Shown here: piece by piece, positions 10,122 to 64,000 of the stretch | Layout of the letters: the number at the start of each line of letters is the position of its first letter | How positions within the stretch are numbered: position 1 is the first letter of the stretch | Origin: Mycobacterium sp. BK086 | GTDB lineage: Bacteria > Actinomycetota > Actinomycetes > Mycobacteriales > Mycobacteriaceae | Length of the DNA stretch: 64,000 nt | Reading direction: 5' to 3' | Assembly (NCBI GenBank): GCA_004362315.1 | Contig: SNWL01000005.1 | Span: forward strand, 558,001-622,000 | Program-made: the position numbers and the translations under genes | Notes under the pieces: model-generated | Seen by the model: only the letters and a program-made list of their open reading frames with translations | What the model was told of the DNA's origin: nothing | Database searches by the model: none

Positions 10122-10412
10122 ATGTCGGTTGACTATGACGCACCCCGCCGGACCCAGGCCGAGCCTGAGGAGGAATCCCTCGAAGACCTGGCGGGCCGGC
10201 GTAAAGACACAGCCACGGCTGTCATCGATGTTGACGAGGCTGAAGCCGCTGACTCGTTCGAGCTGCCCGGCGCGGACCTGTCCGACGAGGAGCTCACCGT
10301 TCGGGTGATCCCGAAGCAGGCCGACGAGTTCACTTGCACGAGCTGCTTTTTGGTGCATCACCGGAGCCGCCTGGCTGACGCCTCGAGCATGACCTGCACC
10401 GACTGCGCCTAA
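10122..10412 (+). CDS. DUF4193 family protein
   Basis: This 96-residue acidic protein is a typical actinobacterial DUF4193 member. It starts MSVDYDAPRR, has the conserved SFELPGADLSDEELTVRVIPKQADEFTCTSCF core and ends with two CxxC pairs (CTSC and CTDC) that probably bind zinc. The function of the family is unknown. The ATG at 10122 follows a purine-rich stretch; the overlapping longer frames are shadows. Confidence 0.92.
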   Translation: MSVDYDAPRRTQAEPEEESLEDLAGRRKDTATAVIDVDEAEAADSFELPGADLSDEELTVRVIPKQADEFTCTSCFLVHHRSRLADASSMTCTDCA

Positions 10413-10441
10413 TCTGCGCCTGATCCGGCCACAATGGTCGG

Positions 10442-11359: not shown

Positions 11360-11846
11360 CGCGGACCAGGAACGGCGCCATGTCCTTGGCGCGCACCGCG
11401 GAGACCGCGACGACGGTGTCGGTGACCTCGAGCATCTGGTTGTTGCCGAGGAACATCGAGACGCTCTGAGTGCCGTCGGGCCCGTAGAAGATCAGGTCAC
11501 CCGGCAGCGCCTGGTCGGCGGTCACGTGCTGGCCCACCTTGTACATATCGCCCGAGGAGCGCGGCAGCTTGGCGCCGACGCCGGCGTAGATGTACTGGAT
11601 CAGGCCGGAGCTGTCGAAACCGACCACCGCGGCGCTCGGTCCCTTGCCCAGGGTGGGTCCGTTGATGTCGCCGCCGGCCCAGGCATAGGGCACGCCGCGC
11701 TGGGCGAGCCCGCGCTGGATCACCAGCTGGACGTATTGATCCCGGCTGACGGGAGCGGCCGAAGCCACCGGGGCCAGCAGGCCGGGAATGGCGAGCAGCA
11801 TCATCAGGCTGACCGCGAGGGCGTATACGCGTTTCTTCATCATCAT
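11349..11846 (-). CDS. RipD-like NlpC/P60 protein lacking catalytic residues
   Basis: The 165-residue protein has a signal peptide (residues 1-30, ending APVASAAP) and an NlpC/P60 fold (GVPYAWAGGD, LPRSSGDMYKVGQHV, LPGDLIFYG). The catalytic Cys of DCSG is Ser79 here (FDSSGL), and the catalytic His of the HVxIYLG strand is replaced by Ser128 (TQSVSMFLGN). It therefore should bind, not cut, peptidoglycan, like M. tuberculosis RipD. The first of three tandem ATGs (11846) follows a GGAAGG ribosome site, which decides the start. Confidence 0.85.
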   Translation of the reverse strand: MMMKKRVYALAVSLMMLLAIPGLLAPVASAAPVSRDQYVQLVIQRGLAQRGVPYAWAGGDINGPTLGKGPSAAVVGFDSSGLIQYIYAGVGAKLPRSSGDMYKVGQHVTADQALPGDLIFYGPDGTQSVSMFLGNNQMLEVTDTVVAVSAVRAKDMAPFLVRVIA

Positions 11847-48738: not shown

Positions 48739-48856
48739 CTACATACCCCCAGGTTGGTGCCGTCCCCCACGCGTGTCTGTTGTGTCAAACACTGGCGGAC
48801 CAATTTACCGTGTGCCGGCATCCCCCGGACCGCTGGGCACCGCTACCGTCTGCGTC

Positions 48857-49603
48857 GTGATCGTTCTGCTTCCGCCGTCAGAGACGAAACGCAGTGGTGG
48901 TGACGGACCCCCGCTGCGCTTGGACGATCTGGGCAGCCCGGCGCTCGGCCCGCTGCGCCGGGATCTCGTCGACGAACTCGTCGCGCTGGCCGCCGAGCCC
49001 GCTGCCTGCCGGCGCGCGCTGGGCATCTCCCCGGCACAGGATGCCGAGATCGAGCGCAACGCGACGCTGTTGAGCTCGCCGACATTGCCGGCGATCAACC
49101 GCTACACGGGGGTGCTCTACGACGCACTCGACGTGGAGTCGCTCAAGGGTTCGGCCGCCGCCCGCGCGGGTGCCCGGCTGGCCGTCGGTTCCGCGCTGTT
49201 CGGCCTGCTTCGGGCGGACGACCGGATACCGGCCTACCGCCTGTCGGCCTCGTCCAAGCTGCCCGGCAGCGCGACGCTGGCCGCTCGCTGGCGCCCCGTC
49301 CTGGAACCGGTGCTGGCCGAGCTCGCCGCCGCCGAGCTGGTGGTCGATCTGCGTTCGGGGTCCTATGCGGGGCTGGGCAAGCTGCCCGACGCGGTTCGCG
49401 TCGACGTCCTGGCCGAGCATCCCGACGGCCGCAGAACCGTCGTCACGCATTTCAACAAGGCGCACAAGGGACGACTCGCCCGGGTACTCGCGACCACCCG
49501 GTCCGAACCCGGCGACGCGGCGACCGTCGCCGCCGTCGCGCGCCGGGCCGGGATGCGGGTCGAGCGAAGCGGCAACGAACTGACCGTCGTCGTCCCCGCG
49601 TGA
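48857..49603 (+). CDS. yaaA: Peroxide stress protein YaaA
   Basis: The 248-residue protein has the YaaA/UPF0246 pattern: start VLLPPSETK, PAINRYTGVLYDALD, SALFGLLRADDRIPAYRLSASSK, VVDLRSGSY and VTHFNKAHKGRLAR. In E. coli YaaA lowers free iron and limits oxidative DNA damage. The GTG at 48857 begins the conserved region directly. Confidence 0.92.
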   Translation: MIVLLPPSETKRSGGDGPPLRLDDLGSPALGPLRRDLVDELVALAAEPAACRRALGISPAQDAEIERNATLLSSPTLPAINRYTGVLYDALDVESLKGSAAARAGARLAVGSALFGLLRADDRIPAYRLSASSKLPGSATLAARWRPVLEPVLAELAAAELVVDLRSGSYAGLGKLPDAVRVDVLAEHPDGRRTVVTHFNKAHKGRLARVLATTRSEPGDAATVAAVARRAGMRVERSGNELTVVVPA

Positions 49604-49625
49604 CGGCGATGCCAGGATGGTGGGC

Positions 49626-50225
49626 GTGAGCACCCGCTGGCAGAAGTCGTCGGCACCGCGCGGCAACGAGTACGACGCCCGGTGGAAATCGCTGGCCGAT
49701 TCCGGACACAACATCCACGGCGAGGCGGATCTGGTCGACAGCATCCTGCGCGAGTCGGGCGGCCACTCGGTCCTCGACGCGGGCTGCGGCACCGGCCGGG
49801 TGGCCATCGAACTGGCCAACCGCGGCTATTCGGTGGTCGGCGTGGACGCCGACGCAGGCATGCTGGCCGCCGCCAGGGACAAGGCGCCGCAGCTGCGCTG
49901 GATCGAAGCCGACCTCGCCGACCTGTCGCGGGCCGGGGTTGATCGCGTCAACCTCGTCCTGCTGGCGGGCAACGTGATGATCTTCCTGGAGCCGGGCACC
50001 GAGTCGGCGGTGCTGGCCGGCCTGGCCGGGCGGCTGACACCGGGCGGACTGCTGGTCGCGGGCTTTTCGGTGCGTCCGGACCGGCTGTCGCTGCAGCAGT
50101 ACGACCAGGCGGCCGAGGAGGCGGGGCTGGTGCCGGTGGTGCGGTGGGCAACCTGGGACCGTGAGCCGTTCGAGGGCGGCGATTACGCCGTGTCGGTGCA
50201 CCGGCTGCGCCGTTCGCCACGCTGA
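49626..50225 (+). CDS. Class I SAM-dependent methyltransferase
   Basis: The 199-residue protein has a clear motif I (VLDAGCGTGRVAIELANRGYSVVGVDAD), an acidic motif (IEADLADL) and a post-motif strand (VLLAGNVMIFL). The substrate is unknown. GTG 49626 is chosen over GTG/ATG 49617 by position; it is 22 bases after yaaA and may be in the same transcript. Confidence 0.87.
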   Translation: MSTRWQKSSAPRGNEYDARWKSLADSGHNIHGEADLVDSILRESGGHSVLDAGCGTGRVAIELANRGYSVVGVDADAGMLAAARDKAPQLRWIEADLADLSRAGVDRVNLVLLAGNVMIFLEPGTESAVLAGLAGRLTPGGLLVAGFSVRPDRLSLQQYDQAAEEAGLVPVVRWATWDREPFEGGDYAVSVHRLRRSPR

Positions 50226-50376
50226 ACAAACTGTCGCCAGCGAAAAAGTTGGTAAAACAGGGGGTGGCCAGTGCAGAAAGCGTTCGCTAGGGTGATTATC
50301 CGGCGCCGGTAGATTGTCTAGGAGAGCGTTGCTGGCGAGCTTTGCTCTATCGGCGCGATCAGGGAGGGACGGGTTG

Positions 50377-51501
50377 ATGCGATCGGCGTTCTCGGGCCGT
50401 CCCGCGAACCAGTACTACACCCTCACCGCGTTGCTGGCCGCCCGCGGCGCCCAGACCTACACCTCCCGGGTCATCGCGGGATCTGTCTTCACGCTCGGTC
50501 TCATCTCGTTGTCGACAATCGGCAGTTCCGCCGTCTTGCAGTGGCCGGCCAGTCGGCTGCTGCTGGGCGGGGTCGCGGTCCTGTGCTTCCTGTCGACGTT
50601 CATCTGGCTGCGACATCGGTGGCCGACCAGGACGGAATCGGGAGTGCTGGTCGGCATCGCCGCGGTTGCCATACCGATCGGGACCATCGCCCCGGTCGTC
50701 CCGATGTACGGATTACTCGGCTCGGCGTCGTTCGCGTTGATCATCGGCTACGCCGCCCTCTTCCACGGGCCGCGACTGTTGGCTGCGATTCTCACCGTCG
50801 CCGTCGCCACCCTGATCTATCTCGCGATCCGGATGGCCAAAGTGGATCTGCCGCTGGCCCTGGCCGGCGTCGCGCTGATGTTGCTGCTGTATGTGTTCGC
50901 CGCGTTCTCCTGCCGGCTGGTGGTCTGGCTCACCGGAACCGAGGACGGCGCCGACTCCGTCGAACCCCTGACCGGGCTGCTCAACCGGGACGCCTTCTAT
51001 CTGCAGACCGCGACGCTGCTGGCCTCGCGTAACCGCGACGACGACCGCTACCTCGTGATCGGCGTGGTCAACATCGACAGCTTCGCGGCCATGGTCGCCG
51101 TCGCCGGCAACCGCGGCGGTAATCGGGCGAGGATCGCCGCCGGCCAGGCGCTGCGCGAGACGGTGCGCCGCGACGCGATCCTGGGTCACGTCGGGGAGGC
51201 CGAGTTCTTCGTGGCCGATTGCTTCACCACCCCGGACTCGTCCCCGTTGATCGAGCGCATCCGCGGCGCCATCGCGGCGACGCCGAGCGGGATGACGGCC
51301 AGTATCGGGGTGGTCAGCACGCCGCTGCGTCCCCTCGTGGAACACCCGCCGCACGAGATCCTCGACGAGATCGTCGCGCTGGCCACCACGGCCATGTACG
51401 AAGCGCGCCGGGCCGGCGGCAACCAGGCCCGCTACGTGGTACGCCCGAATCTGAGCATCAACGACGACGAGACCGACGGGTACGACACCCCGCTGCTGTG
51501 A
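50377..51501 (+). CDS. Membrane protein with degenerate GGDEF domain
   Basis: The 374-residue protein has about six membrane spans in its first 180 residues and a C-terminal GGDEF-like domain (about residues 200-350, LTGLLNRDAFYLQT at the start). The catalytic loop is not GGDEF but VGEAEF, so cyclase activity is unlikely; it may bind nucleotides or be a sensor. The ATG at 50377 has a GGGAGGG ribosome site, while a TTG upstream is weaker. Confidence 0.82.
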   Translation: MRSAFSGRPANQYYTLTALLAARGAQTYTSRVIAGSVFTLGLISLSTIGSSAVLQWPASRLLLGGVAVLCFLSTFIWLRHRWPTRTESGVLVGIAAVAIPIGTIAPVVPMYGLLGSASFALIIGYAALFHGPRLLAAILTVAVATLIYLAIRMAKVDLPLALAGVALMLLLYVFAAFSCRLVVWLTGTEDGADSVEPLTGLLNRDAFYLQTATLLASRNRDDDRYLVIGVVNIDSFAAMVAVAGNRGGNRARIAAGQALRETVRRDAILGHVGEAEFFVADCFTTPDSSPLIERIRGAIAATPSGMTASIGVVSTPLRPLVEHPPHEILDEIVALATTAMYEARRAGGNQARYVVRPNLSINDDETDGYDTPLL

Positions 51502-51502
51502 A

Positions 51503-51877
51503 TCACGGCGCGCCGACCGAATCCGGGTCGATCTCCACGCCGTACGACGTGATCGACGCGATCTCGGCGCCGTCGAATCGATAGATGTGGCAACTGGACA
51601 CGACGGTGACGCCGTCCTGTCGCTGGTAGCGCCCGAGCACCTCGACGACGACGTCGTCGTCCTGCTCGACGGTCAGGCAGTGGTCCCAGGTCGCGACCGC
51701 CGCGGCCAGGCCGCCCGCGGTCTCACGGCACGTCGCGGTGACCGCGTCGGCGCCTTCCAGGACCGAATAGCCGACGATCGTCCACCGAACGTCACGGGCC
51801 AGATGTGGGAGGGCCTCGTCGAATCGGTGCTGTGCGAAGGCGCGCGCGATCTCAGCCCGGTCGCTCGGTCCGCTCAC
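51503..51877 (-). CDS. SnoaL/NTF2-like domain protein
   Basis: The 124-residue protein has the cone-shaped NTF2-like pattern (RFDEALPHLARDVRWTIVGYSVLEGADAV, FDGAEIASITSYGVEID). Members are isomerases, hydrolases or binding proteins; no activity can be assigned. The GTG 51877 start has an AGGAGTT site. It is convergent with the degenerate-GGDEF gene and divergent from the ureohydrolase. Confidence 0.8.
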   Translation of the reverse strand: MSGPSDRAEIARAFAQHRFDEALPHLARDVRWTIVGYSVLEGADAVTATCRETAGGLAAAVATWDHCLTVEQDDDVVVEVLGRYQRQDGVTVVSSCHIYRFDGAEIASITSYGVEIDPDSVGAP

Positions 51878-51937
51878 TGCTCAACTCCTGTCGAAGACAC
51901 TGCTGTCGAGGCTATCTCGGGCGGTAGTGTCTGCCCA

Positions 51938-52981
51938 ATGAGCCACGGCCACGACCACAATCCCGCGCGTGAACTGCCACCCGGTATGGCCGAGCAGCTG
52001 GATCTGCCCTATTCGGGCCTGGCCTCGTTCGGGCACCGCCCCTTCCTGACCGAACCCGAGCAGCTGGACAGCTGGCGCCCGGATGTGGCGATCGTCGGCG
52101 CACCGTTCGACATCGCCACCACCAACCGGCCCGGAGCGCGCTTCGGGCCGCGCGCGATCCGGGCCACGGCCTACGAACCCGGTACGTATCACATGGATCT
52201 CGGGCTGGAGATCTTCGATTGGCTGGAGGTCGTCGACTTCGGCGACGCACACTGCCCGCACGGATCGACCGAGGTGTCGCACGCGAACATCCGTGAGCGC
52301 GTGCACACCGTCGCCTCGCGCGGCATCGTGCCGGTCGTGCTCGGCGGCGACCATTCGATCACCTGGCCGTCGGCCACCGCGGTAGCCGATGTGCACGGTT
52401 ACGGCAATGTCGGGATCGTGCATTTCGACGCGCACGCCGACACCGCCGACATCATCGACGGCAACCTGGCCAGCCACGGCACGCCGATGCGTCGATTGAT
52501 CGAATCGGGCGCGGTGCCCGGTACGCATTTCGTCCAGGTCGGGCTGCGCGGCTACTGGCCGCCGCAGGACACGTTCGAGTGGATGCAGGAACAGGGCATG
52601 GTTTGGCACACCATGCAGGAGATCTGGGATCTGGGCTTCAAGGAAGTGATGCGCCGCGCGGTGAGCGAGGCGCTGGCGAAGGCCGACAAGCTTTATGTCT
52701 CAGTCGATATCGACGTGTTGGACCCGGCACATGCACCCGGCACCGGCACCCCGGAGCCCGGCGGAATCACCAGCGCCGACCTGCTGCGTATGGTCCGGCA
52801 GCTGTGCTACGAGCACGATGTCGCCGGCGTCGACGTCGTCGAGGTTGCCCCGGCCTACGATCACGCCGAGCTGACCGTCAACGCCGCCCATCGGGTGGTC
52901 TTCGAAGCGCTGGCCGGGATGGCGGCCCGCCGCCGGGATGCGGCCGGCGCGAAGGCGGGACCGCCGTCGCCGTTGGCCTAG
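51938..52981 (+). CDS. Agmatinase/ureohydrolase family enzyme
   Basis: The 347-residue enzyme has all Mn-binding motifs of the arginase/agmatinase family: GGDHSITW, HFDAHADTAD and SVDIDVLDPAHAPGTGTPEPGG. Similar enzymes hydrolyse agmatine, guanidinobutyrate or related guanidines, releasing urea. A His-rich N-terminus (MSHGHDHN) might bind metal. The ATG at 51938 is the start; the longer open frame upstream overlaps the opposite gene and is rejected. Confidence 0.92.
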   Translation: MSHGHDHNPARELPPGMAEQLDLPYSGLASFGHRPFLTEPEQLDSWRPDVAIVGAPFDIATTNRPGARFGPRAIRATAYEPGTYHMDLGLEIFDWLEVVDFGDAHCPHGSTEVSHANIRERVHTVASRGIVPVVLGGDHSITWPSATAVADVHGYGNVGIVHFDAHADTADIIDGNLASHGTPMRRLIESGAVPGTHFVQVGLRGYWPPQDTFEWMQEQGMVWHTMQEIWDLGFKEVMRRAVSEALAKADKLYVSVDIDVLDPAHAPGTGTPEPGGITSADLLRMVRQLCYEHDVAGVDVVEVAPAYDHAELTVNAAHRVVFEALAGMAARRRDAAGAKAGPPSPLA

Positions 52982-54093
52982 TAGTCGGACTCGGCGGCCA
53001 GGATCTCGGCCAGGTAGGCGTCCGGTCCGGGTTCGGCCAACCGCTGCCGGGCGAATCGCCGGGCCCTCTCCCGGGATTCGGGCGCTTCGGACGTCTCGGC
53101 CCCGACCACGACCGCGGTCGCCGACCAGTCCTGGTCCCAAGCGGCGGCGGCCGTGGTGTCGGCGAATTCGACGGTCGCCCTGCCTGATTCGTCAAGCGCG
53201 CCAGAAGCGGTAAACCCGTTGCAGCGCAGTGTGATCGGGATACCGACCGGTGACCCGGGTCCGATCACCGCGACGTGCAGTGCGGCGGTCACCCCATTGT
53301 CGTCGCCGGCCACCGCCCAGCTGACGGTGTTCTCGGCGGCGTCGAACAGGCCACCGGGAACCCCGGACCACGCCAGCGAGGTGACGCCTCGGGCGATCAA
53401 TCCGTCGGGTGTCGGTCCGGCGTCGGAGCCGGCGGCCAGGGCGTAGTCGTCGCGGTGCGCTGACGCTGTCGCCGGTGCCGCCATGTTCTCGACGGCATCG
53501 GACAGCTCGGCCCAGCCCGGTCCGTCGACGCCGACATCCTCGGCCAGCCGCACACACCGGGTCACGAGTTCCACCACGCGGGGGTCGCCGACCAGCAGGT
53601 GCAACGTGAGCGCGGTCGCGTGCGGGGCCAGCAGCGCATGGATATCGGCGTCGAGGCTGTCCTCCCCCACGAAATCGTCGGATTGCGCCGTCGCCAGCGC
53701 GATCTCGGCATCCAGCAGTGCCGGGTCCAGGCCCGCGATGCCGTCGCGGATGCTGGCCGGCCACCACCGGCGCAGCCAGTGCCCGATGGCCAGTCGCCGC
53801 AGGCTGTCAAGTGCGCCGGAGGTGACCTCGACGTCGGAAAGATCCACTGTGGCAGCCGGTTCGGTGGGCTGCACCGCGGCAGTCGCCACCGCGCGGTGGC
53901 CCGATTCGCCCAGTACCCGCCAGAGCCAGTCGGCCCGGTCGGCATCGGTCAGGGTGATCTGCGCGGCCTGCTCCTGTGACTCGTCGACTGTCCAGGCCAG
54001 CACCGCGCCGTCGACCTCCACCACCGCCACCAAAGGGACTTCGGCGACGGTGGGACCGATGCGCCACAGTCCGGAATCCGCAACCAATCTCAT
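52978..54093 (-). CDS. Hypothetical protein in the CHAT cluster (371 aa)
   Basis: The protein is acidic and predicted to be alpha/beta with an N-terminal strand-rich region (residues 1-40) and helical middle (about 85-180). I recognise no family or catalytic motif. The ATG at 54093 overlaps the stop of the upstream unknown gene (ATGA), so the two are made together. Its end overlaps the ureohydrolase stop by 4 bases. The long open frame upstream of 54093 is a shadow. Confidence 0.75.
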   Translation of the reverse strand: MRLVADSGLWRIGPTVAEVPLVAVVEVDGAVLAWTVDESQEQAAQITLTDADRADWLWRVLGESGHRAVATAAVQPTEPAATVDLSDVEVTSGALDSLRRLAIGHWLRRWWPASIRDGIAGLDPALLDAEIALATAQSDDFVGEDSLDADIHALLAPHATALTLHLLVGDPRVVELVTRCVRLAEDVGVDGPGWAELSDAVENMAAPATASAHRDDYALAAGSDAGPTPDGLIARGVTSLAWSGVPGGLFDAAENTVSWAVAGDDNGVTAALHVAVIGPGSPVGIPITLRCNGFTASGALDESGRATVEFADTTAAAAWDQDWSATAVVVGAETSEAPESRERARRFARQRLAEPGPDAYLAEILAAESDY

Positions 54094-55409
54094 TGCATCA
54101 CCTGGACTTCCAGCATGGCCTTGATCCGCTGGCGGTGGTCGAGGCTCACCGAACGGGCGACCCCCTCCAGCAGCGCGCGCAGATCGTCGACGTCGTCGCA
54201 CGATTCCTGCCAGACATCGCGGCCGTGCAGCCGTGCCCACAACCGGCTCAGGTACGGCCGGGCGAAGTTGGCCAGATCGTCGACCACCTGGCGCTGACGC
54301 GGATGGAGCGGCTCGAGTGCGCCCAGGGCGCGCCGCGCGTGCAGCACGTAGGCCTCCTTGCGCAGCCTGGCCTGGATCGTCGCGGCCAGCTGATAGCGGC
54401 TCACCGCGCGCTCGTCGAGCGGGGCCAGCTGGCCGGCGATCTCGATACCGGCCACCAGCGCGGCCTGTTTGTCCTCGCCGAGGAAACCCCAAGGGGCACA
54501 GGCGCGGTCGACTTCCTCGGCACACAGCAGTGGTACGTCGGGAAGCTCGTCGCGGTCCAGCGCACGCCGCAGTGTCGCGCGCACACGGTCCACCACGCTG
54601 CGGTCCAGCGGCCGGTCACGCTCCGACCCGCCGGACAACGGCGGCACGCTCAGCGGCAATGCGGAGGTCAGCCCCAGTTCGAGGATCGACCACGGCAGCG
54701 CCGACGGGTGGGTACGGGCCTGGGCGCCCAGATTGTGCGGTGTCGCGTCGGCGATCAGTGCCGACCAGACCCGTTGGCGGGCAACGGTGGCGCGATGCCC
54801 CTCGGCCGGGCCGAGCACCGTGGACAGGCCGGCCAGGAACGGGCCGTTCATGCTGTCGTCGGCGCGCACATCGGCCCAGCTGCGGTGCAATTGGGCCGAA
54901 AGCCGGGTGAGCACCGCGGGTGAGGCCACGAGCTCGTTGAGCACCTCGACGCCGGTGCGGTCACGGTCGTCGTGCACGGCGCGCAGCGCCGCCTCTGCCA
55001 CCTGCTGGCCATCGGCGCCGGGTGCGCCGTTTGTCACCGCAAGCTCGAAACAGACTGGGAAATAGAGGTCTTGGGCGTTACCGGCGGTGATGCGCTGCCG
55101 CCGTCGCTGCGCTTTCATCAAGTCGAACCACGCGGCCGTCGATCGCAACCGGTCGCCGTGACCGGCGATCAGGTCGGCCATCTGGGCGGCCACCTCGGAA
55201 TCGACGAACGGAGCCGAGTACGCGGGGTTGGCGCGCAGTCGTAAGACGAGCGGGTCGAGGATGCGTTTCACCGTCCGGCGTAGCGGCCCGCCGTCGTCAC
55301 CGCTGAGAACCTCCACGCCGGGCCCGAGGGCCCGCCACGCGCGGTCGATCACCGCACGCCGCGGCAGCGACGTGCCGACGGCGGTGACCGTGTCCGGGCC
55401 GGCGCTCAT
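54090..55409 (-). CDS. Hypothetical protein in the CHAT cluster (439 aa)
   Basis: This largely helical protein shows no motif I can place. Features that may help a search are FPVCFELAVTNGAPGADGQQV, DDSMNGPFLAGLSTVLGP and the C-terminal basic HPRQRQVVDDLANFARPYLSRL segment. The ATG at 55409 is chosen as the start; the frame runs far upstream over the opposite-strand gene at 55476-56135 and that part is a shadow. It is coupled to the 371-residue gene. Confidence 0.72.
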   Translation of the reverse strand: MSAGPDTVTAVGTSLPRRAVIDRAWRALGPGVEVLSGDDGGPLRRTVKRILDPLVLRLRANPAYSAPFVDSEVAAQMADLIAGHGDRLRSTAAWFDLMKAQRRRQRITAGNAQDLYFPVCFELAVTNGAPGADGQQVAEAALRAVHDDRDRTGVEVLNELVASPAVLTRLSAQLHRSWADVRADDSMNGPFLAGLSTVLGPAEGHRATVARQRVWSALIADATPHNLGAQARTHPSALPWSILELGLTSALPLSVPPLSGGSERDRPLDRSVVDRVRATLRRALDRDELPDVPLLCAEEVDRACAPWGFLGEDKQAALVAGIEIAGQLAPLDERAVSRYQLAATIQARLRKEAYVLHARRALGALEPLHPRQRQVVDDLANFARPYLSRLWARLHGRDVWQESCDDVDDLRALLEGVARSVSLDHRQRIKAMLEVQVMQ

Positions 55410-55475
55410 CCGGACAGAATAAGGCCAGCACGAAGTTGGGTTCGGTAGCCGGTGACGGTAGGCACGCTGCTCACC

Positions 55476-56135
55476 ATGTCTGATGCACTGCTGGGCGCCA
55501 TCGCCGTCGTCTCCGCCATCGCTCTCGCCTCGATCATCGTCGCCGCCGGTCTCGGCGGTCAGCCACCCCGTCCGCAACGTCCTCGCCGCACACGCTGCCC
55601 ACGCTCGATCGGCGTCGGCATGGTGCAGATGGTGGAGGGCGCCGACGATCCTGTCATCGTCATCGAGGTGGAAAGTGTTGCCGGTCAGCGCTTCACCGGC
55701 CGGCTGTGCCACGGCCAGGACGACCCGGTGGTGTCGGCCCTGCGTCCCGGGGTGATCGTGCTGGTGTCGTTCGACCCGGCCAGCCGCAAGCAGCTCTCGC
55801 TGGCCGACGATGCCATCGCCGTGCGGGCCGCCGCCGACCACAGCTTGCTGCGGCAAGGCGTGCTCACCGACGACCAGCTGGAGCTGATCCGGTTCGGCAC
55901 CCGCTCGTGCGGGGTGGTGACCGGAATGCGGCCCACCGGCCGCGAGCGTGCCGACTACCGCGAGGTCGAGCTGAACCTGATGGTCACCCGCCCCGGGGGC
56001 GGGCAGTTCCCGGCCCGCGAAACCACCCTGGTGCCCGAGTCCGTGCTGGCCAAGGTCACCCCGGGCAGCATCATCGACACCTATTACCTGCCGGAGGACG
56101 AGTCCGCGATCACGGTGTGCCTGCCCCCGGCCTGA
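55476..56135 (+). CDS. Membrane-anchored hypothetical protein inside the CHAT cluster
   Basis: The 219-residue protein starts with one strong membrane span (about residues 5-24) followed by a basic linker and two strand-rich repeats (VQMVEGADDPVIVIEVESV..., and GVVTGMRPTGRERADYREVELNLMVTRP...), which suggests a beta-barrel or OB-like domain. The start is ATG 55476; GTG 55452 is an alternative. It runs opposite to its neighbours and ends 5 bases before the CHAT gene end. Confidence 0.7.
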   Translation: MSDALLGAIAVVSAIALASIIVAAGLGGQPPRPQRPRRTRCPRSIGVGMVQMVEGADDPVIVIEVESVAGQRFTGRLCHGQDDPVVSALRPGVIVLVSFDPASRKQLSLADDAIAVRAAADHSLLRQGVLTDDQLELIRFGTRSCGVVTGMRPTGRERADYREVELNLMVTRPGGGQFPARETTLVPESVLAKVTPGSIIDTYYLPEDESAITVCLPPA

Positions 56136-56140
56136 CCCGG

Positions 56141-57481
56141 TCATCGCGCACCCCCGACCGCAAAGGTGACCACCGCGGCCCAGTACAACGGGCAGGCGGT
56201 GGTATCGCCGTCGCGCCACCGGCGCATCTGCTCGCGCTGCCAGCGGTTCAGGCTCAACACCGCGTCGTCGGCCTCGTGCGCGTCATCGACCGCCATCACG
56301 ACCTCAGCCATCGGATCCTCGGTGCGGGCGGTGAACCGGCGGTATCCCGCGGTCGTGGGCAGTGACCACAGCGTGGCCGTCACCAGCTCGCTGCCGCACA
56401 GCACCATCGCGGCGACCAGTCCGGTGGCCTCGTCGAACTGATAGTCGCCGCCGGAGCCGCACGCCAGCAGCGCCACCCGGGGCGGCACCGGCAGCTGAGC
56501 GGCCATCAGATCCGCGGCCAGCAGCGGACGGTGATCCCCCACCGGTTCGGCGGCGCCGTCGGCCGCGGACGTGCACGCCAGATGCAGTGCGGCGCGGTCG
56601 GCGTAGCCGTGCGTTTGGTCGGCGGCACTGGCGTGGCCGACATAGAGCAGCCGGCTCGGGGCGCGGTCCAGCAGCGTGGCCAGCCAGCCCCGGTCGGCGT
56701 CGCTGCGGCGGAACAGCTCCACGGCGGCACCGACCTCGGGCAGCACCGGGCGGTGGGCGCGCAGCACGTCGAAGTGGCGCGACAGCGTGCTCTCCCCCGA
56801 GGGCCTGCCCAGGACCGAGCCCAGGGGTGAATCCGGTCGCTGGCCAGGAACACGGGGGTCCATCACGAGAAGTGCTGGAGCGCTTTTCCTTTCACGCCAG
56901 TGCGCGGGGGTGCGCGGGGCGTGCACGATGTTCGGCGGCACTGCCATCACGACGTCGACCATTTCCATCAAGCGGAAACCCTCGGTCGCACTCTTGATAT
57001 CGGCGAGCTGCCAGGGGATGCGTGCGGCGTTGGTGCCCTTGAAGGTGACGGCTTCCTTGCGGGCCGCGACCAGTTCCTCGGGGCTCGGGCCGGTCACGGG
57101 AACTGCCAACGCGCCCCACGGGATGCGGGCCAGTCGTGCGCTCGGCGAGATGAACAGCACCGGGCGCGGGTCGGCGACGCACTCCGAGATCAGCTGCCAG
57201 GCCGCCGCCGATATCAGCAGCACACCGAGGATGTAGGCGAGGGTCAATTCGCCCTCCACGGTGGCGAACGGCCCCCGGGTCAGGGCCCGGTCGAGCGCTT
57301 CGCTCAGGCTTTCGTGCCCGTCGGGGTCGGGCAACGCCCCGCGAAGCTCTTCGAGCGCGGCCAGCACGATCGGTTCGTGCACCACCCACGTCACGGTGCG
57401 GTCGGGTGCTCCGACGACACGCAGGCTGGCGTACGTCGCCACCCCGACGTCGGCGAAGCGCAAGACGAGCGTGGTACTCAT
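56141..57481 (-). CDS. CHAT domain protease-like protein
   Basis: The 446-residue protein has a C-terminal CHAT (caspase-related) domain. Residues 106-130 (RPVLFISPSARLARIPWGAL) are the typical CHAT entry strand, His283 is in LLYVGHAS and Cys341 in VALLACGSGG, giving the His-Cys dyad. The middle has ATLWSLPTTAGY, also typical. It is therefore likely an active cysteine protease, but its target and trigger are unknown. The ATG overlaps the stop of the helical-repeat gene (ATGA). Confidence 0.88.
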   Translation of the reverse strand: MSTTLVLRFADVGVATYASLRVVGAPDRTVTWVVHEPIVLAALEELRGALPDPDGHESLSEALDRALTRGPFATVEGELTLAYILGVLLISAAAWQLISECVADPRPVLFISPSARLARIPWGALAVPVTGPSPEELVAARKEAVTFKGTNAARIPWQLADIKSATEGFRLMEMVDVVMAVPPNIVHAPRTPAHWRERKSAPALLVMDPRVPGQRPDSPLGSVLGRPSGESTLSRHFDVLRAHRPVLPEVGAAVELFRRSDADRGWLATLLDRAPSRLLYVGHASAADQTHGYADRAALHLACTSAADGAAEPVGDHRPLLAADLMAAQLPVPPRVALLACGSGGDYQFDEATGLVAAMVLCGSELVTATLWSLPTTAGYRRFTARTEDPMAEVVMAVDDAHEADDAVLSLNRWQREQMRRWRDGDTTACPLYWAAVVTFAVGGAR

Positions 57482-59160
57482 GGCCAGGTCGACCAGACGG
57501 GGCGGCCGGAGGTGACGGCCTGGCCGTAGCGGTTCTGGGCCAGCAGCCGGTAGCGGGCCAGGATGGGGCTGCCGCCGGGCTCCATCTGCAGCGGTGGAAG
57601 GGCACCCAGCGTCGTCTGCGTCAGCGCGTCGACCACGAAGCCGCCAGCGGCCAGGGCCTCCTCGTCCCAGGTCTCGACGGGCACCGTCGCGGTCGCGGGC
57701 GCATCCCAACCGCCGGCTTCACCACGTGATTCGTTGGCGAAAGTTCCTCGGGCGCAGTGGTATTCGATCAGCTCGCTGAGAAGGGTGTCGTTCTCCCATT
57801 CCCAGGCCACCGAGAAGGCGCCGGCCAGCATCCGGGCCGAGACCTGGGAGGCCCATCGCCAGCGGGCGTCGGCATCGGTCATGGCGTAGCGCACGGAGTC
57901 GACGGCCAGCGCGGCCGGAATCTTGAGGTCGGCCGCCTTCTCGAGTTTGGCCAGGGCGCTGCGGTGGCGTTCGCTTCCGGTGTCGAAGCGGGTGACCCCG
58001 AGCGAAGCCACCTGGCGCTCCTGAAGCTGCTGCCAGTCGTCGCTCGACGGATCGCCGATTCCATCGAAGTTCAGGTCGGCCAGGGCGTCGGCGCGCCAGA
58101 TCGAGCCGAGGTGGTCGTCGAGTCGCGCGTATTGCAGCCAGCTCGACCGCGACCAGCTGTCCAGGAATTCGCGGGCCTCGGCGACCTGCTTCACCGCCTC
58201 GTCGAACCGGCCGCGGAACACCGAGATCCAGCTGCGCTGCATCAGGATCCGATGGATGTACAGCGGGCGGCCCAGCTCCCGCCATTGCGTTTCGGCGTGC
58301 CCCCAGGATTCGTCGGCCTCCTTGAGCCAGCCGATTCCCAACCGGGTGAGCCCGAAGTACAACCAGCACCGGGCGACGTCGTGAGCGCGGGAATGCTCGG
58401 CGATCACCGGGTAGGCGGCCCCGACCAGCCGCTCGGTGGATTCGTGGTCGCCCCGTAGCCAGGTGGCCGCCGCGGTCTCGAGTTCGGCTCGCGCCCAATA
58501 CAGTTGCCACTCCCGGCGCTGCGCCCGCGCGCTCGCCCGGTGCAGCCACTGGTCCCCTTCGGCCAGCCGGCCGGTCTCCACACAGAACCGGCCGTAGGCG
58601 ATACCGGTGGCGACGAGAAGCTGGTCGGTCTCGTCGGTGCCCTCGGGCAAACCCTCGACGACCGGAATGATGTTCTGCCACAGAGCCGCAGCAGGCACGT
58701 GCAGATCGTCATCGCACAGCGCCGTCGCGCACAGCACGCCGGCCAGGGTCACCAGGTGGCGTTGTTCGGGCTCGAGGTCGGCGAACCGGCGGGGGGCCTC
58801 GTCCTCGTCCAGCTCGGCGAGTTCCCGTGCGGCCTCTTCGTGCTCGCCTGCGGCCGCGGCCAGGCCGGTGCGCAGGAAGCGGGCCCGCATGGTGTAGCGG
58901 GCGATCATGTGGTCGGCCTCGGTGCCGGTCTCGTAGTGGGCCAGGCAATCCGTCATCCGCTGAAGGCATTGGCGGGTGCCGTCGTATGCCGTTCTGGTGA
59001 GGTAGATTTCGCCGAGCTGGGCGAAGACCTCGAGTGCCAGATCGTCGCGGTCCTCGCGCTCGATCTCCGGCATCAGCGACAGCAGGAGGTCCTTGGCCGC
59101 CTCCTCTTTGGCGGCGAGCGCGAGCTCGCGGGCCCGCTGCAGATCGCCGGTGATGGACAC
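57478..59160 (-). CDS. TPR-like helical repeat protein paired with the CHAT protease
   Basis: The 560-residue protein is mostly amphipathic helix pairs of TPR-like spacing (for example LALEVFAQLGEIYLTRTAYDG, LVATGIAYGRFCVETGRLAEG, and ISVFRGRFDEAVKQVAEARE), giving a helical scaffold; the C-terminal 100 residues look more globular. CHAT proteases often carry or sit next to such repeats that sense a trigger. The GTG at 59160 lacks a ribosome site, and a TATGAT -10 lies 7 bases upstream, so the message is probably leaderless. It is translationally coupled to the CHAT gene. Confidence 0.8.
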   Translation of the reverse strand: MSITGDLQRARELALAAKEEAAKDLLLSLMPEIEREDRDDLALEVFAQLGEIYLTRTAYDGTRQCLQRMTDCLAHYETGTEADHMIARYTMRARFLRTGLAAAAGEHEEAARELAELDEDEAPRRFADLEPEQRHLVTLAGVLCATALCDDDLHVPAAALWQNIIPVVEGLPEGTDETDQLLVATGIAYGRFCVETGRLAEGDQWLHRASARAQRREWQLYWARAELETAAATWLRGDHESTERLVGAAYPVIAEHSRAHDVARCWLYFGLTRLGIGWLKEADESWGHAETQWRELGRPLYIHRILMQRSWISVFRGRFDEAVKQVAEAREFLDSWSRSSWLQYARLDDHLGSIWRADALADLNFDGIGDPSSDDWQQLQERQVASLGVTRFDTGSERHRSALAKLEKAADLKIPAALAVDSVRYAMTDADARWRWASQVSARMLAGAFSVAWEWENDTLLSELIEYHCARGTFANESRGEAGGWDAPATATVPVETWDEEALAAGGFVVDALTQTTLGALPPLQMEPGGSPILARYRLLAQNRYGQAVTSGRPVWSTWP

Positions 59161-59180
59161 GGCTGCATCATAAATCGCGC
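59161..59180 (-). promoter_or_regulatory. Leaderless promoter of the CHAT operon
   Basis: On the minus strand the sequence TTTATGATGCAGCC precedes the GTG. The -10 hexamer TATGAT lies 6 bases before the start codon, which places transcription at about the first base of the GTG. No -35 hexamer is clear, as is usual in mycobacteria. Confidence 0.45.
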
Positions 59181-59254
59181 GGACCGCGTGGAGATGGCGA
59201 GACGGCGGACGTGCCTGGCACGTCCGCCGCCCCTTGCCCGGGGTGCCGATCACG

Positions 59255-59752
59255 TCACTTGCAGGTGACGGTGATTTCGAACTTCTTGCTGATCATGCCG
59301 GCCATCGGGTTCTTCATGTCGGCGCCGGCCGCCTCGCCGGTGATCGTGTAGGTGTCGCCGTCCACCTTCACCTCGGCGGAACCGGTGCCCATGCCGCCGG
59401 CCTGGCTCACCGCGAGTGCGTTGCCATCGACGACCATGCCCAGGGACTGGACCTTCGGCGGCTGTCCGTCGCTCATGACCACACCGAGCCCCTGCTGACC
59501 ACCGACCGCGCCGCTGGCGATGTTGATCGTGCCGCCCTGCTTCACGCACGTCACGGAGTTCAGGTCGAGACCCTGAAGGTCGCTGCCGTCGACCTTGACC
59601 GACGTCTTGCCGCCGGAGGCGACAGTGGCACTGGAGGGCGCGGAACCCGTCGCCGAGCTGGTGCCCTTGCTGCTGCTGTTGTTGTCCGAGCAGCCGACCA
59701 GCATCAAGCTGCAGCCAACCACGCCGACACCGACCGCGAGAATTCGCTTCAC
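59255..59752 (-). CDS. lpqH: LpqH-family 19 kDa lipoprotein antigen
   Basis: The 165-residue protein has a lipoprotein signal with lipobox LVGC, a Ser/Thr-rich linker and the LpqH beta-fold (VKQGGTINIASGAV, MSDGQPPKVQSLGMVVDG, DTYTITGEAAGADMKNPM, KKFEITVTCK). Two Cys in the mature part match the M. tuberculosis 19 kDa antigen. It is a TLR2-type surface lipoprotein. GTG 59752 is set by the signal peptide and an AGGG site. Confidence 0.93.
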   Translation of the reverse strand: MKRILAVGVGVVGCSLMLVGCSDNNSSSKGTSSATGSAPSSATVASGGKTSVKVDGSDLQGLDLNSVTCVKQGGTINIASGAVGGQQGLGVVMSDGQPPKVQSLGMVVDGNALAVSQAGGMGTGSAEVKVDGDTYTITGEAAGADMKNPMAGMISKKFEITVTCK

Positions 59753-59885
59753 CTGTGTTCCCTTCGTTCGCGGCGCCTCGGTGGCGCCGTCACGAGGTAA
59801 GTACAGGCGGTGGCCGTGGCTACCGATCCCAAACTTTCCGCGCCGATCTCGATGACCTGTCGGTAGTGCGCGCGAGTATCCAGGC

Positions 59886-60743
59886 ATGAATGACGTGTTC
59901 ATTGGCAGCGAAGCGATCGCTTCGGGTCGGCTCACCGAGCACGAGTTGCGTCGGTGGTATCGGCCGATCTATCGCGACGTTTACCTGGCGACCTCGGTCG
60001 AGCCATCGCTGCGCGATCGGACGCGCGCGGCGTGGCTGTGGTCGAAACGGAGTGGGGTGATCGCCGGGCTGGCGGCCGCGGCGTTGCATGGCTCCCCGTG
60101 GGTCGACGCGGATGCACCGATCGAACTCATCGGTCGAAGCGCCCGGCGCCACGAAGGGTTGATTGTCAGAAACGAGACGCTCGCCGATGACGAGATCACC
60201 AAGGTTGCCGGCCTGCCCGTGACAACGCCTGTGCGTACCGCGTTCGACCTCGGCCGGCACCTCGATGCGGCGGCGGCGATCGCTCGCCTCGACGCGTTGA
60301 AGTGGGCCACTTTCTTCTCTATCGACGACGTGACGAAGTTGGCGCGGCTACGTCCCGGTGCCCGTGGAGTGCGGCAGCTCATGGCGGTTCTTCCGCTCGT
60401 CGACGGTGGAGCGGCGTCACCGAAGGAAACGTGGCTCCGAATGCTGTTGGTAGAAGCTGGTTTTCCACGGCCGACGACCCAAATTCCAGTGATGGACGGG
60501 TGGCGGATGCTGGCCGTCCTGGATATGGGGTGGGAGGACATCAAAGTGGCGGTCGAGTATGACGGCGGCCATCACCAGTCAAGGCGAGCTCAATACGTCA
60601 AGGATCGACGAAGAATTCGCAGGCTCGAGGAATTGGGTTGGATCGTCATCCGGGTGATCGCGGAAGACCACCCCGAGGATGTTGTCAGGCAGGTGCGCGA
60701 CGCGATTCTGCTTCGCAGTTCACCGAGATCGACGGTGGCGTGA
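59886..60743 (+). CDS. AbiEi-like antitoxin / DUF559 endonuclease-like protein
   Basis: The 285-residue protein has an N-terminal AbiEi-like segment (SGVIAGLAAAALHGSPW, then LPVTTPVRTAFDLGR) and a C-terminal PD-(D/E)xK Vsr/DUF559-like fold: KETWLRMLLVEAGFPRPTTQIPV, IKVAVEYDGGHH and ELGWIVIRVIAED. The AbiEi-type antitoxin is normally paired with an AbiEii toxin; none lies here. Such single genes are common in mycobacteria. Confidence 0.8.
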   Translation: MNDVFIGSEAIASGRLTEHELRRWYRPIYRDVYLATSVEPSLRDRTRAAWLWSKRSGVIAGLAAAALHGSPWVDADAPIELIGRSARRHEGLIVRNETLADDEITKVAGLPVTTPVRTAFDLGRHLDAAAAIARLDALKWATFFSIDDVTKLARLRPGARGVRQLMAVLPLVDGGAASPKETWLRMLLVEAGFPRPTTQIPVMDGWRMLAVLDMGWEDIKVAVEYDGGHHQSRRAQYVKDRRRIRRLEELGWIVIRVIAEDHPEDVVRQVRDAILLRSSPRSTVA

Positions 60744-60790
60744 GGGTTACTCGTACTTTCCCACGCCAGCGTCGATCTCGACGCAATGAC

Positions 60791-62059
60791 TCAGGCCTTG
60801 GCGTTGGCGAATTGCTTGGCGTCGTAGAGCCGTGCCCACTCCGCACGCGGGCGGATCGACACGTCGACGTCGGCGCCCTTGGCACGCAGGCCCTTGACGG
60901 TGGCGTCTTCCCTGGCGGTGCGGGCGAACGGATCCCAGCTGAAGAACCGGCAGGAGTTCTCCCAGGTGATCTTGTTGATATCGGAATCCGATGCGCCCGC
61001 CGCGTTCAGCTCGGCCAGCACCTGCTCGGGTGCGTCCGGCCAGAAGCAGTCCGAATGCGGGTAATCGCACTCCCAGGCGATGATGTCGATGCCGATCTCG
61101 TGGCGCAGCTTCAGCGACGTCTTGTCGGTGACGTAGCAGGCCAGCGAATGCTCGCGGAACACCTCGCTGGGCATCTTGTCGCCGAAGTCGCGGCGCAGCC
61201 ACTTCTGATTGGTGTAGTGCCGGTCGCTGCGATCCAGATAGAACGGAATCCAGCCGATGCCGCCCTCGGAGAAGGCGAATTTGAGATCCGGGTAGTTGCG
61301 CATTGCCGGGCCCCACAACAGGTCCTGTGCGCACATCGCCGAAACCTGGGTGGCCAGGATGATCATGTTGTCGATCGGCGCGTTGGGGGCCATGCTGATC
61401 GCGCCGAAGCCGGTGCCGATGTGCAGGCACATCACCACGTTCTCCTCGGACAGCGTCCGGAACACCGGACCCCAATAGTCCTCGTCGTGGTAACTCGGCA
61501 GGCCTTCGAGGTGCGGCAGCTCGGGCATGGTGACCGCCCGGCAGCCCTTGGCCGCCACCCGGCGGATCTCGGCGCACATCCCCTCGGGGGTCCAGGTCGG
61601 CAGGATCGCGATCGGGATGAACCGGTCCGGGTAGGCGCCGGCCCACTCGTCGATGTGCCAGTCGTTGTAGGCCGACACCATCACCAGGGTGACGTCTTCG
61701 CGGGTCATATTCAGGTGCCGCGCGGAGAAACCGGTGAACGTCGGGAAGCACATCGAGGCCAGGATGCCGTTGCGGTTCATATCGCGGACCCGCTCGTGTA
61801 CGTCGTAGACACCCGGACGCATCTCGGCGAAGCCCGCCGGGTCACGGCCCCATTCCTCGGCGGGCCAGGACACCACCGCGTTGAGCCCGCTCACGCCCTG
61901 CGGACGGCCCTGGTACATCCACTGGTCGACGCCCTTGTCGTCGGTGACGACGATCGGAGCGTCGGGCTTGTACTTGGCCGGGACGTGGTTGAGGAACATA
62001 TCGGGCGGCTCGACCACGTGGTCGTCAATGCTCACCAGGATCAGGTCGTCGACGTTCAT
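60791..62059 (-). CDS. Amidohydrolase family (metal-dependent, amidohydrolase_2) protein
   Basis: The 422-residue enzyme has the TIM-barrel amidohydrolase_2 fold: SIDDHVVEPPDMF at the N-terminus with metal-binding pattern, GCRAVTMPELP, CLHIGTGFG, FAFSEGGIGWIPFYLDR and WECDYPHSDCFWP. Mycobacteria have many such proteins, often for aromatic or steroid ring breakdown or decarboxylation. The substrate is unknown. It is divergent from an AraC-type regulator with 25 bases between starts, the likely controller. Confidence 0.88.
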   Translation of the reverse strand: MNVDDLILVSIDDHVVEPPDMFLNHVPAKYKPDAPIVVTDDKGVDQWMYQGRPQGVSGLNAVVSWPAEEWGRDPAGFAEMRPGVYDVHERVRDMNRNGILASMCFPTFTGFSARHLNMTREDVTLVMVSAYNDWHIDEWAGAYPDRFIPIAILPTWTPEGMCAEIRRVAAKGCRAVTMPELPHLEGLPSYHDEDYWGPVFRTLSEENVVMCLHIGTGFGAISMAPNAPIDNMIILATQVSAMCAQDLLWGPAMRNYPDLKFAFSEGGIGWIPFYLDRSDRHYTNQKWLRRDFGDKMPSEVFREHSLACYVTDKTSLKLRHEIGIDIIAWECDYPHSDCFWPDAPEQVLAELNAAGASDSDINKITWENSCRFFSWDPFARTAREDATVKGLRAKGADVDVSIRPRAEWARLYDAKQFANAKA

Positions 62060-62084
62060 GCCTCAAGTTGTACCCTCGATAATC
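62060..62084. promoter_or_regulatory. Short divergent promoter, amidohydrolase and AraC genes
   Basis: Only 25 bases separate the divergent starts, so the regulator's promoter must lie in or overlap the amidohydrolase coding start. TACCCT at 62071-62076 is a candidate -10 that would give a leaderless regulator message. No repeat is obvious. Confidence 0.25.
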
Positions 62085-62918
62085 GTGACCGTCTCCGCAC
62101 ATTCGGCCAGAGGTTTCGCTCAACCGGCCAACATCGGCCAGGTGGAGCTGCGCCGGGGTGGGCGGGTCCTGGCCGGCAGCTACCTCTACGAGGGAGAACT
62201 GCTGGTCACCGGCTGGCATTTTCACGACGTGCACCAGATCGAGTACGCGATCGGCGGGGTGGTCGAGGTCGAGACGACCTCGGCGCACTATCTGTTGCCA
62301 CCTCAGCAGGCGGCCTGGATCCCGGCCGGCCTGGAACATCAGGCGACGATGAACCCGTCGGTCAAGACGCTGGCGGTGATGTTCGACCCCGAGCTCATTC
62401 CCGCCCCCGGCGACCGCGCCCGCATCCTGGCGGTCTCGCCCCTGATCCGGGAGATGATGCTCTACGCGTTGCGCTGGCCGATCTATCGAGCGGGCGGTGA
62501 TGAGGCCTCGGACGCGTTCTTCCGCACGCTCGCCAATCTGGTGGCCGAGGCGCTGGATCATGAAGCGCCGCTGAGCCTTCCGAGCTCGGATGATCCGGTG
62601 GTCGCCGCGGCGATGGCCTACACCAAGGAGCACCTGCAGTCGGTGAGCCTGCAAGAGGTCTGCAAGGCGGTCGCGGTCTCCGAGCGCACACTGCGGCGGC
62701 AATTCCAGAGCGAAGCCGAGATGTCCTGGCGCACTTACCTTCTGCACGCCAGGATGCTGCGGGCGATGGCGCTGCTGGCCGCCCCGACGCAAAGTGTCCA
62801 GCAGACCGCGACCGCCGTCGGCTTCGACAGTGTCGGCTCGTTCACCAGGGCCTTCAGTCAGTTCTGCGGAGAGACCCCGTCGTCATACCGAAGGCGTGTC
62901 ACCAACACCGGTGGGTGA
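62085..62918 (+). CDS. AraC family transcriptional regulator
   Basis: The 277-residue regulator has an N-terminal cupin-type ligand domain (GWHFHDVHQIEYAIGG, LLPPQQAAWIPAGLEHQA) and a C-terminal double helix-turn-helix (VSLQEVCKAVAVSERTLRRQFQSE, QQTATAVGFDSVGSFTRAFSQFCGETPSSYRR). It is divergent from the amidohydrolase gene and probably controls it. The GTG at 62085 gives the expected N-terminus. Confidence 0.9.
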   Translation: MTVSAHSARGFAQPANIGQVELRRGGRVLAGSYLYEGELLVTGWHFHDVHQIEYAIGGVVEVETTSAHYLLPPQQAAWIPAGLEHQATMNPSVKTLAVMFDPELIPAPGDRARILAVSPLIREMMLYALRWPIYRAGGDEASDAFFRTLANLVAEALDHEAPLSLPSSDDPVVAAAMAYTKEHLQSVSLQEVCKAVAVSERTLRRQFQSEAEMSWRTYLLHARMLRAMALLAAPTQSVQQTATAVGFDSVGSFTRAFSQFCGETPSSYRRRVTNTGG

Positions 62919-63130
62919 GGTGACCGCGCGCCGATGGGTGCGCTCATGCCAGCGCAGGCGCAACAACAACAACCCGCGGTGCGCCTCGAACCCCAGCGAC
63001 AACGGATGTCGCCAGGAGCCCGATCGTGTTCGCCGTGTTTGTGTCACCACTCCACTGTGCCAGCCGAGCGATTCAGGTTGCCGCGACACACCCCTCACTG
63101 TGCCGCTTGTCACCTGAAGTTCGTTGTCTG

Positions 63131-63805
63131 TCAAGAATCCTCGTCAGCACCGGTAATGGCGGCGACCAGCATGGTCAGTTCGCCGCCCAGCGCGCCGCGA
63201 ACCTCGTGGCCGGCGCGCTTGGCCGACTCGCTGACGTCGCCGCGAGCAGCGACCGCAGTGGCGCGCAGTTCGGTGACGTTGCGGCCGAACGCCTCGCGCA
63301 CATTGTCACCCTTGGTGGCCGCTGCCGCGACTGCAAAGGCGCCGTCGAGGGCCGAGCCGGCCACGGTGCCCTGTGCGGAAGCCAGCGAACCCGCGACCTC
63401 ACCGGCGTATCCGAGGACCGCCACCGGCAGAGTGGCCTGATGGCCGACGTAGGTGGTGACGGCCGCGCGCAACCGCCCGCCGGCTTCCTCGAACACATCC
63501 TGGACGCCGCTGCCCGTGCGTTCCCACGCCGACGCGATGCTCTCGCCGTCCTGAATGGCGCCCGCGAACGTCGCCGGTGCGTGGGCGATCGCGGTGCCGA
63601 CATCCGTTGCGGCGTCGATGAGTTGACTGCCCAACGCCTGGCCGGCGGCGATCTGACGCTCGAGGACCTGGCGGATGGCGAGCTTCATGCGTTCGTCCTG
63701 CGGTTCCGGCAGGATCTCCGCGTCGAGCACTTCAGCGACCTCGACGACGTCGTCGGCGGTCGGAACGGCGGTGACTGTTTCGGACTCGGTCGTGGATTCA
63801 GACAT
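63131..63805 (-). CDS. Hypothetical helical protein
   Basis: The 224-residue protein has an acidic N-terminus and a long Ala-rich, predicted helical body (about residues 35-220) with no signal peptide or membrane span. It may form a coiled-coil-like bundle. I do not recognise a family. The start is ATG 63805. It is convergent with the AraC gene across a 212-base gap that holds no other clear feature. Confidence 0.68.
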   Translation of the reverse strand: MSESTTESETVTAVPTADDVVEVAEVLDAEILPEPQDERMKLAIRQVLERQIAAGQALGSQLIDAATDVGTAIAHAPATFAGAIQDGESIASAWERTGSGVQDVFEEAGGRLRAAVTTYVGHQATLPVAVLGYAGEVAGSLASAQGTVAGSALDGAFAVAAAATKGDNVREAFGRNVTELRATAVAARGDVSESAKRAGHEVRGALGGELTMLVAAITGADEDS

Positions 63806-64000
63806 GCGCCCAGTCAACGCGTCCGGGCCGACGCGACGATATCGGCGAAGTGACGAACGGGACTCCGGCAGGCAAAGAGAAGGAAGTCCGGCTTCCCCCG
63901 GCTACCAGGCTGCCACCAGCTGGTATCCAGCTAGTTGCCAGAAAGTCGTCCTATCCTCAGTTTTCGCGTCCCGGCGACTGTGACGCTGCCTGTCGGAGAC
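63806..64000. other. Intergenic sequence at the window end
   Basis: Upstream of the helical-protein gene I see no clear coding sequence in the last 195 bases. The stretch 63901-63950 is richer in A/T and has inexact repeats of CAGCTGG/CAGCTAG that may be regulatory. The next gene is out of view. Confidence 0.3.

Follow-up and report, generated by a model that had tools for sequence, protein, structure and literature searches.

What does a CHAT-family cysteine protease do in a mycobacterium, and with which partners could it be switched on? This question is raised by a locus of Mycobacterium sp. BK086 (assembly GCA_004362315.1, contig SNWL01000005.1), analysed here within a stretch of 64,000 nucleotides, positions 558,001 to 622,000 of the forward strand, hereafter called the window. 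An initial annotation had described a two-gene unit, formed by a CHAT protease and a dedicated helical-repeat partner with tetratricopeptide-repeat (TPR)-like character. Judged by gene content, the unit is one of four genes, X1, X2, TPR and CHAT, kept together across several actinobacterial families. We think it fairly probable that they constitute a regulated-proteolysis module, in which TPR and CHAT would be a split protease resembling separase or Csx29, gated by X1-X2. The features on which this proposal is built are the following.

56141-57481, minus strand: CHAT, a CHAT-family cysteine protease of 446 residues (Pfam PF12770)
56635-56633 and 56461-56459, minus strand: codons of the dyad residues His283 and Cys341, respectively, in the CHAT gene
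57478-59160, minus strand: TPR, the partner, 560 residues, GTG start, a TPR protein by its homologues; 4-base overlap with the CHAT gene
54090-55409, minus strand: X1, 439 residues, all-helical in its AlphaFold2 (AF2) model, matching no known family and occurring near CHAT
52978-54093, minus strand: X2, 371 residues, with a beta N-terminus, a helical middle and a C-terminal immunoglobulin (Ig)-like sandwich; 4-base overlap with X1

The CHAT protease and its catalytic dyad

The window CHAT protein scores 37.4 bits with PF12770 against a cut-off of 24, and a family search over the whole 6.93-Mb genome recovered the same gene on contig 3. His283 and Cys341 are invariant in the alignment of 25 Mycobacterium CHAT proteins, the window protein included. 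They are equally invariant in the 31 members of a wider set spanning other families, where the surroundings of the dyad are strongly conserved too; 30 of these 31 match the CHAT model (E 0.01). The assignment as a CHAT protein with a kept His283/Cys341 dyad is thus confirmed. The same invariance bears on the idea of a non-catalytic scaffold, a CHAT fold without protease activity in a module acting by binding alone. Nothing direct speaks for this idea and, with the dyad and its surroundings retained in such diverse members, we hold it to be very improbable.

The window genome carries a second CHAT gene at a separate locus (L097:7425-11881, contig 8; 442 residues, 57 bits). It overlaps a gene of 558 residues and is followed by one of 481 residues; profiles of X1 and X2 gave no match at that locus.

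A TPR partner tied to CHAT

The TPR and CHAT genes overlap in an ATGA at 57481-57478; the lengths of 446 and 560 residues, the coordinates and the overlap given by the initial annotation are all correct. Its TPR-like partner is borne out by homology only. TPR_12 is matched by 15 of the 24 proteins in the TPR-partner alignment (best E 2.5e-10), while the window protein, itself among the TPR_12 misses, has no Pfam match at all; it is TPR-like through its relatives. As for the partner being dedicated to CHAT, the two genes share exactly the same distribution over 61 genomes, being present in 25 (a count that, as with all co-occurrence counts here, ignores kinship among genomes), and the neighbourhood survey found them adjacent in homologues.

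The junction between the two genes is tight. The overlap measures four bases in 21 of 24 Mycobacterium relatives and ten bases in the remaining three. Outside Mycobacterium, TPR and CHAT form a single open frame in seven of 28 complete loci (L108, L109, L110, L230, L231, L232 and L233), and 15 of the 21 unfused junctions show a 4-base overlap, with starts called as close as possible to the upstream stop codon, a rule that favours short overlaps. The fusion is the best available sign that both proteins could form a complex.

X1 and X2 as companions of the pair

Of the 61 genomes, 37 belong to the same genus; CHAT is present in 25 of these and absent from all 24 genomes outside the genus. The 25 genomes with CHAT also carry X1, as does G005, a draft in which X1-X2 occupy a contig of 4.3 kb. 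The 24 Mycobacterium loci with CHAT that we fetched show the order lipoprotein, TPR, CHAT, Y (on the opposite strand), X1, X2, the lipoprotein and Y genes being described below. Gaps are few: X2 is absent from L082 alone and the lipoprotein from L092 alone, both at contig ends, and Y was not found in L095. The best 80 of 417 named loci (79 with Mycobacterium or Mycolicibacterium in the title, the other from an unclassified actinomycete) contain TPR in 80, X1 in 79, X2 in 78, Y in 78 and the lipoprotein in 77, and every miss except one Y lies at a contig end; gene order in these 80 was taken from stop-to-stop frames, so that apparent swaps are frame-end artefacts. Decaying copies were also seen: TPR and X1 are broken in L078, and only a fragment of X1 is left in L234 and in L240, where it is accompanied by Y.

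The association extends over the order. Across 397 genomes of the order, a wide CHAT profile identified 66 CHAT places, spread over 65 genomes; at 65 of these places X1 shares contig and strand with CHAT, at a gap of 48-5411 bases. All 65 genomes with CHAT have X1, and no genome among the 397 had CHAT without X1; this 65-genome count covers CHAT and X1. The two surveys included 397 genomes of the order each and are taken as the same sample, all 65 recurring. X1 occurs in 67 of the 397 genomes and in 12 of 85 genera; at phylum level a narrow profile found it in 11 of 396 genomes and at class level a broader one in 34 of 394.

We fetched 31 loci outside Mycobacterium (20 + 11). All four genes are on one strand in 28 of them, 27 being ordered X1-X2-TPR-CHAT and one (L108) having a Mycobacterium-like order. 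The other three are incomplete: L126 holds X1 only, the contig of L227 ends after X2, and L234 retains an X1 remnant. A subtilase gene and a PKD-domain gene lie upstream of X1 on the same strand in L126, and nothing links them to it. Because X1 and X2 travel with the TPR-CHAT pair in this way, the unit of two genes has to be given up.

X1 and X2 are themselves joined by a 4-base overlap at 25 of 29 junctions outside Mycobacterium, under the same choice of start codon. X1 matched neither Pfam nor any PDB profile, X2 matched no known family, and NCBIfam matched none of the four genes. The AF2 model of X1 has a predicted local distance difference test (pLDDT) value of 88.3 and a predicted template modelling (pTM) score of 0.66; apart from the Ig-like sandwich of X2, neither the X1 nor the X2 model has a convincing relative in the PDB.

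Purifying selection acts on the unit. Against four close relatives, the ratio of nonsynonymous to synonymous substitution rates (dN/dS) was 0.08-0.16 for CHAT, 0.13-0.20 for TPR, 0.13-0.18 for X1 and 0.26-0.30 for X2. Such low values, together with stable inheritance in the Mycobacterium loci, would also suit a regulator of growth or division that performs routine regulated proteolysis with no emergency response, comparable to the cyanobacterial CHAT protein HetF, a reported divisome component according to the accessible part of PMC8406250. However, the genes are dispensable, as seen from their absence from 12 of the 37 same-genus genomes, from all 24 others and from most of the order, and we consider a regulator of this sort unlikely.

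Promoter-like elements

Three elements accompany the starts of the two gene pairs in the window.

59204-59228, minus strand: perfect hairpin with 12-bp arms, terminator-like, with no U run, between the lipoprotein gene and TPR
59167-59172, minus strand: TATGAT, a -10-like element with its final T at -7 relative to the GTG of TPR; TPR-CHAT is probably transcribed from it without a leader
55416-55421, minus strand: TATTCT, a -10-like element with its final T at -7 relative to the ATG of X1; probably the promoter of a leaderless X1-X2 transcript

Leaderless promoters are common in mycobacteria. A TANNNT ending at -7 or -8 precedes 23 of 25 TPR starts; for X1 the figures are 23 of 26 starts in Mycobacterium and 15 of 20 in distant loci. 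The background is 18 of 3902 ATG or GTG triplets taken anywhere in the window, mostly coding. The TPR misses are a broken gene (L078) and a contig end (L092), and the Mycobacterium X1 misses (L076, L084 and L092) look like misplaced start calls. This spacing suggests leaderless promoters, and therefore the window organism probably transcribes TPR-CHAT and X1-X2 separately. The lipoprotein gene is probably a transcription unit of its own; folding of 15 lipoprotein-TPR intervals predicted a hairpin in all 15, with no shuffle control.

Neighbouring genes and a possible envelope link

Two further genes flank the unit in the window.

55476-56135, plus strand: Y, 219 residues, with a single stretch of high hydrophobicity at the N-terminus; transcribed away from X1 and towards CHAT
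59255-59752, minus strand: LpqH-like (Myco_19_kDa) lipoprotein, upstream of TPR (PF05481, 112 bits)

Y is present in 23 of the 24 Mycobacterium loci, and a clear homologue (>100 bits) stands opposite X1 in 18 of the 31 distant loci. Its hydropathy peaks at 2.67 from residue 5 in the window protein, and the hydrophobic stretch reaches 2.04-2.69 in the eight proteins listed for the window and its Mycobacterium relatives. The LpqH-like gene adjoins the unit in all of the 24 Mycobacterium loci but one, which is cut by a contig end, and in 4 of the 31 distant ones. Against the four close relatives, dN/dS was 0.16-0.30 for Y and 0.24-0.39 for the lipoprotein. Among 57 sequences searched, PQQ_2 gave a weak, sub-threshold match to a further protein; its gene is situated between those of Y and X1 in 11 distant loci, and three other loci have it beyond CHAT. 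One such PQQ_2-like protein between Y and X1 has a membrane-like segment (L125:10257-11516). Envelope-type neighbours of these three kinds, Y, lipoprotein and PQQ-like protein, are suggestive of a signal that could come in part from the envelope.

On the plus strand, at 59886-60743, the lipoprotein gene adjoins a gene for a DUF559/MTES_1575-type protein whose N-terminal part is AbiEi-like; a homologue of this protein occurs in 2 of the 24 Mycobacterium loci. A YaaA-type peroxide stress protein is encoded at 48659-49603 (plus strand), about 3.4 kb beyond X2, and an ARAGORN tRNA-Gly call at 62542-62621 (plus strand) lies inside an AraC-family gene and is probably spurious.

Trees, transfer and plasmid versions

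Trees of CHAT and X1 agree in their well-supported clades, Mycobacterium with L108 and L109/L110 among them; in these three distant loci TPR and CHAT are fused. L231 is placed differently in the two trees, with weak support, and the rows of L238 (843 residues) and L236 (488 residues) are over-long spans trimmed by column filling only. Because the members of f14g42, and likewise those of f18g87, sit in separate clades, some transfer of the unit is suggested.

CHAT relatives occur on nine plasmid records, and gene content was obtained from four of them. X1-X2-TPR-CHAT is found in Streptomyces L238 and, together with Y and the lipoprotein, in Nocardia L235 (a 2.66-Mb replicon; Nocardia farcinica record). 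The Rhodococcus plasmids L236 (conjugative; 3724-10809) and L237 (mobilizable; 4019-11443) carry CHAT, a convergent TPR gene and two genes upstream of CHAT, which are alike between the two plasmids (38% and 43% identity). Homology of these upstream genes to X1/X2 could not be shown, as hhalign gave probabilities of 0.1-1.3% with two-row alignments.

Plasmid-borne relatives, one of them conjugative, the split clades and the patchy spread of X1 over genera raise the alternative of an anti-phage or other conflict system, in which X1-X2 would sense infection and CHAT proteolysis would kill or arrest the cell. The initial annotation had suggested a stress or phage response. CHAT proteases do act in Craspase immunity, according to the accessible parts of PMC10028731 and PMC9729208. 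However, PADLOC matches none of the five locus proteins, so that a known defence system was rejected, and CHAT had no match in 50,697 phage records, which leaves a phage-borne origin rejected as well. Among ten nearby proteins, Y included, PADLOC matched three, namely AbiEi (the 59886-60743 protein, 42 bits), a part of mad2 (a methyltransferase) and, weakly, DpdC. The 24 Mycobacterium loci keep a stable gene order, purifying selection acts on the unit, there is no direct-repeat array near the locus, and another effector replacing CHAT was seen in none of the 31 distant X1 loci (three of the 31 lacking CHAT, and the scan covering part of the neighbours of the 31). Phage defence is thus possible but not favoured, and we regard it as rather unlikely.

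Proposed mechanism

How could four such proteins work together? By analogy with Csx29 and separase-like TPR-CHAT proteins, we think of a split protease that is held off until triggered. TPR and CHAT would assemble, as two chains here and as one chain in some relatives, in the layout of separase or Csx29, and the helical-repeat scaffold would keep the His283/Cys341 dyad inactive until a signal arrives. X1 and X2 are the natural candidates for a gate, because they accompany TPR-CHAT steadily and have no recognised relative. Produced together from a promoter of their own, they could bind the TPR scaffold and either relay the trigger or serve as inhibitor and first substrate. The signal may come partly from the cell surface. 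Once activated, CHAT would make limited cuts in one or a few host proteins, thereby turning on a response or stopping growth.

The sequences themselves show the CHAT family, the conserved catalytic residues, gene coupling, fusion, co-occurrence, purifying selection and the separate promoter-like elements. Inferred beyond these are a complex, which fusion and co-occurrence support, X1-X2 as its gate, a signal from the envelope, a trigger and a substrate. Several observations weigh against it. The second copy in G061 (L239), one of the 66 CHAT places, consists of TPR and CHAT with neither X1 nor X2 detectable, and therefore X1-X2 are not strictly required. Two genomes, G419 and G251, have X1 but no CHAT; the X1 of G251 is the fragment beside Y (L240). 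On the Rhodococcus plasmids L236 and L237, the genes that stand in place of X1 and X2 have no detectable homology to them. Profile searches connect the window CHAT to no solved CHAT structure. As for the envelope, some loci lack the Y, LpqH-like or PQQ-like gene, and the hydrophobic segment of Y is weaker outside Mycobacterium (1.36-2.10). Moreover, the hairpin and the separate promoter-like element before TPR mean that the lipoprotein link may be positional.

It is tempting to go further and to see in the regulated-proteolysis module an undescribed actinobacterial signalling protease, a prokaryotic counterpart of the separase-securin arrangement divided among four genes. Two proteins with new folds would gate its caspase-like enzyme according to the state of the envelope, X1 or X2 being the inhibitor or first substrate. 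We offer this extended version tentatively and with considerable doubt. In open-licence full texts we found no description of an X1-X2-TPR-CHAT composition and no paper combining CHAT with mycobacteria; the accessible part of PMC8195603 does not contain CHAT as a whole word. Our analysis assigns an identity and an order to four genes that NCBIfam leaves unmatched. With its natural TPR-CHAT fusions and two partner families lacking a recognised relative, the set is a tractable place to study the gating of such proteases.

Comparison with known systems

In the accessible part of PMC10028731, the TPR domain of Csx29 relays activation to the dyad H615/C658, and the enzyme makes a single cut in Csx30. 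The TPR-CHAT protein of type III-E CRISPR resembles separase, the two residues of its dyad lying some 7 A from each other in the inactive state, and eukaryotic separase combines a helical superstructure with a caspase-like protease held by an inhibitor (PMC9729208, accessible part). The unit described here shares with Csx29 of Craspase (CASP) a TPR scaffold and a CHAT domain with a His/Cys dyad, in a similar single chain in the seven fused loci. It differs in having two genes in the window, X1 and X2 as partners, and no repeat array at the locus. As the initial annotation had stated, no CRISPR lies nearby: there are no tandem arrays in 40000-64000 and no direct repeats of at least 20 bases within 200 bases in 48000-64000. 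PADLOC gave no Cas7-11 (gRAMP) match among 14 distinct proteins near the locus, the presence of that model in the library being unchecked, and no gasdermin is named among the Pfam matches of the scanned neighbours, with the same proviso for a bacterial gasdermin model. Since profile searches reach no solved CHAT protein, close kinship to Csx29 is not established, and the likeness is one of layout.

With separase the unit shares the helical superstructure plus caspase-like protease. In contrast, the separase family C50 of Pfam is touched weakly by one of the 31 members (E 0.0025) and not by the window CHAT at E 0.1, and no securin-like partner was identified. CHAT genes in the contexts of ECF54 sigma factors, for which regulation by proteolysis has been proposed from gene context (PMC8999054, accessible part), are similar in that respect, whereas no sigma-factor domain is among the Pfam matches of the six locus genes.

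Caspase-like enzymes with helical scaffolds act in processes as different as eukaryotic chromosome segregation and type III-E CRISPR immunity (accessible parts of PMC10028731 and PMC9729208). In summary, CHAT, its helical-repeat partner and X1/X2 probably form a switchable protein-cutting machine, and we rate the mycobacterial CHAT unit as a variant of the TPR-CHAT kind of protease in an unusual and well-kept setting.

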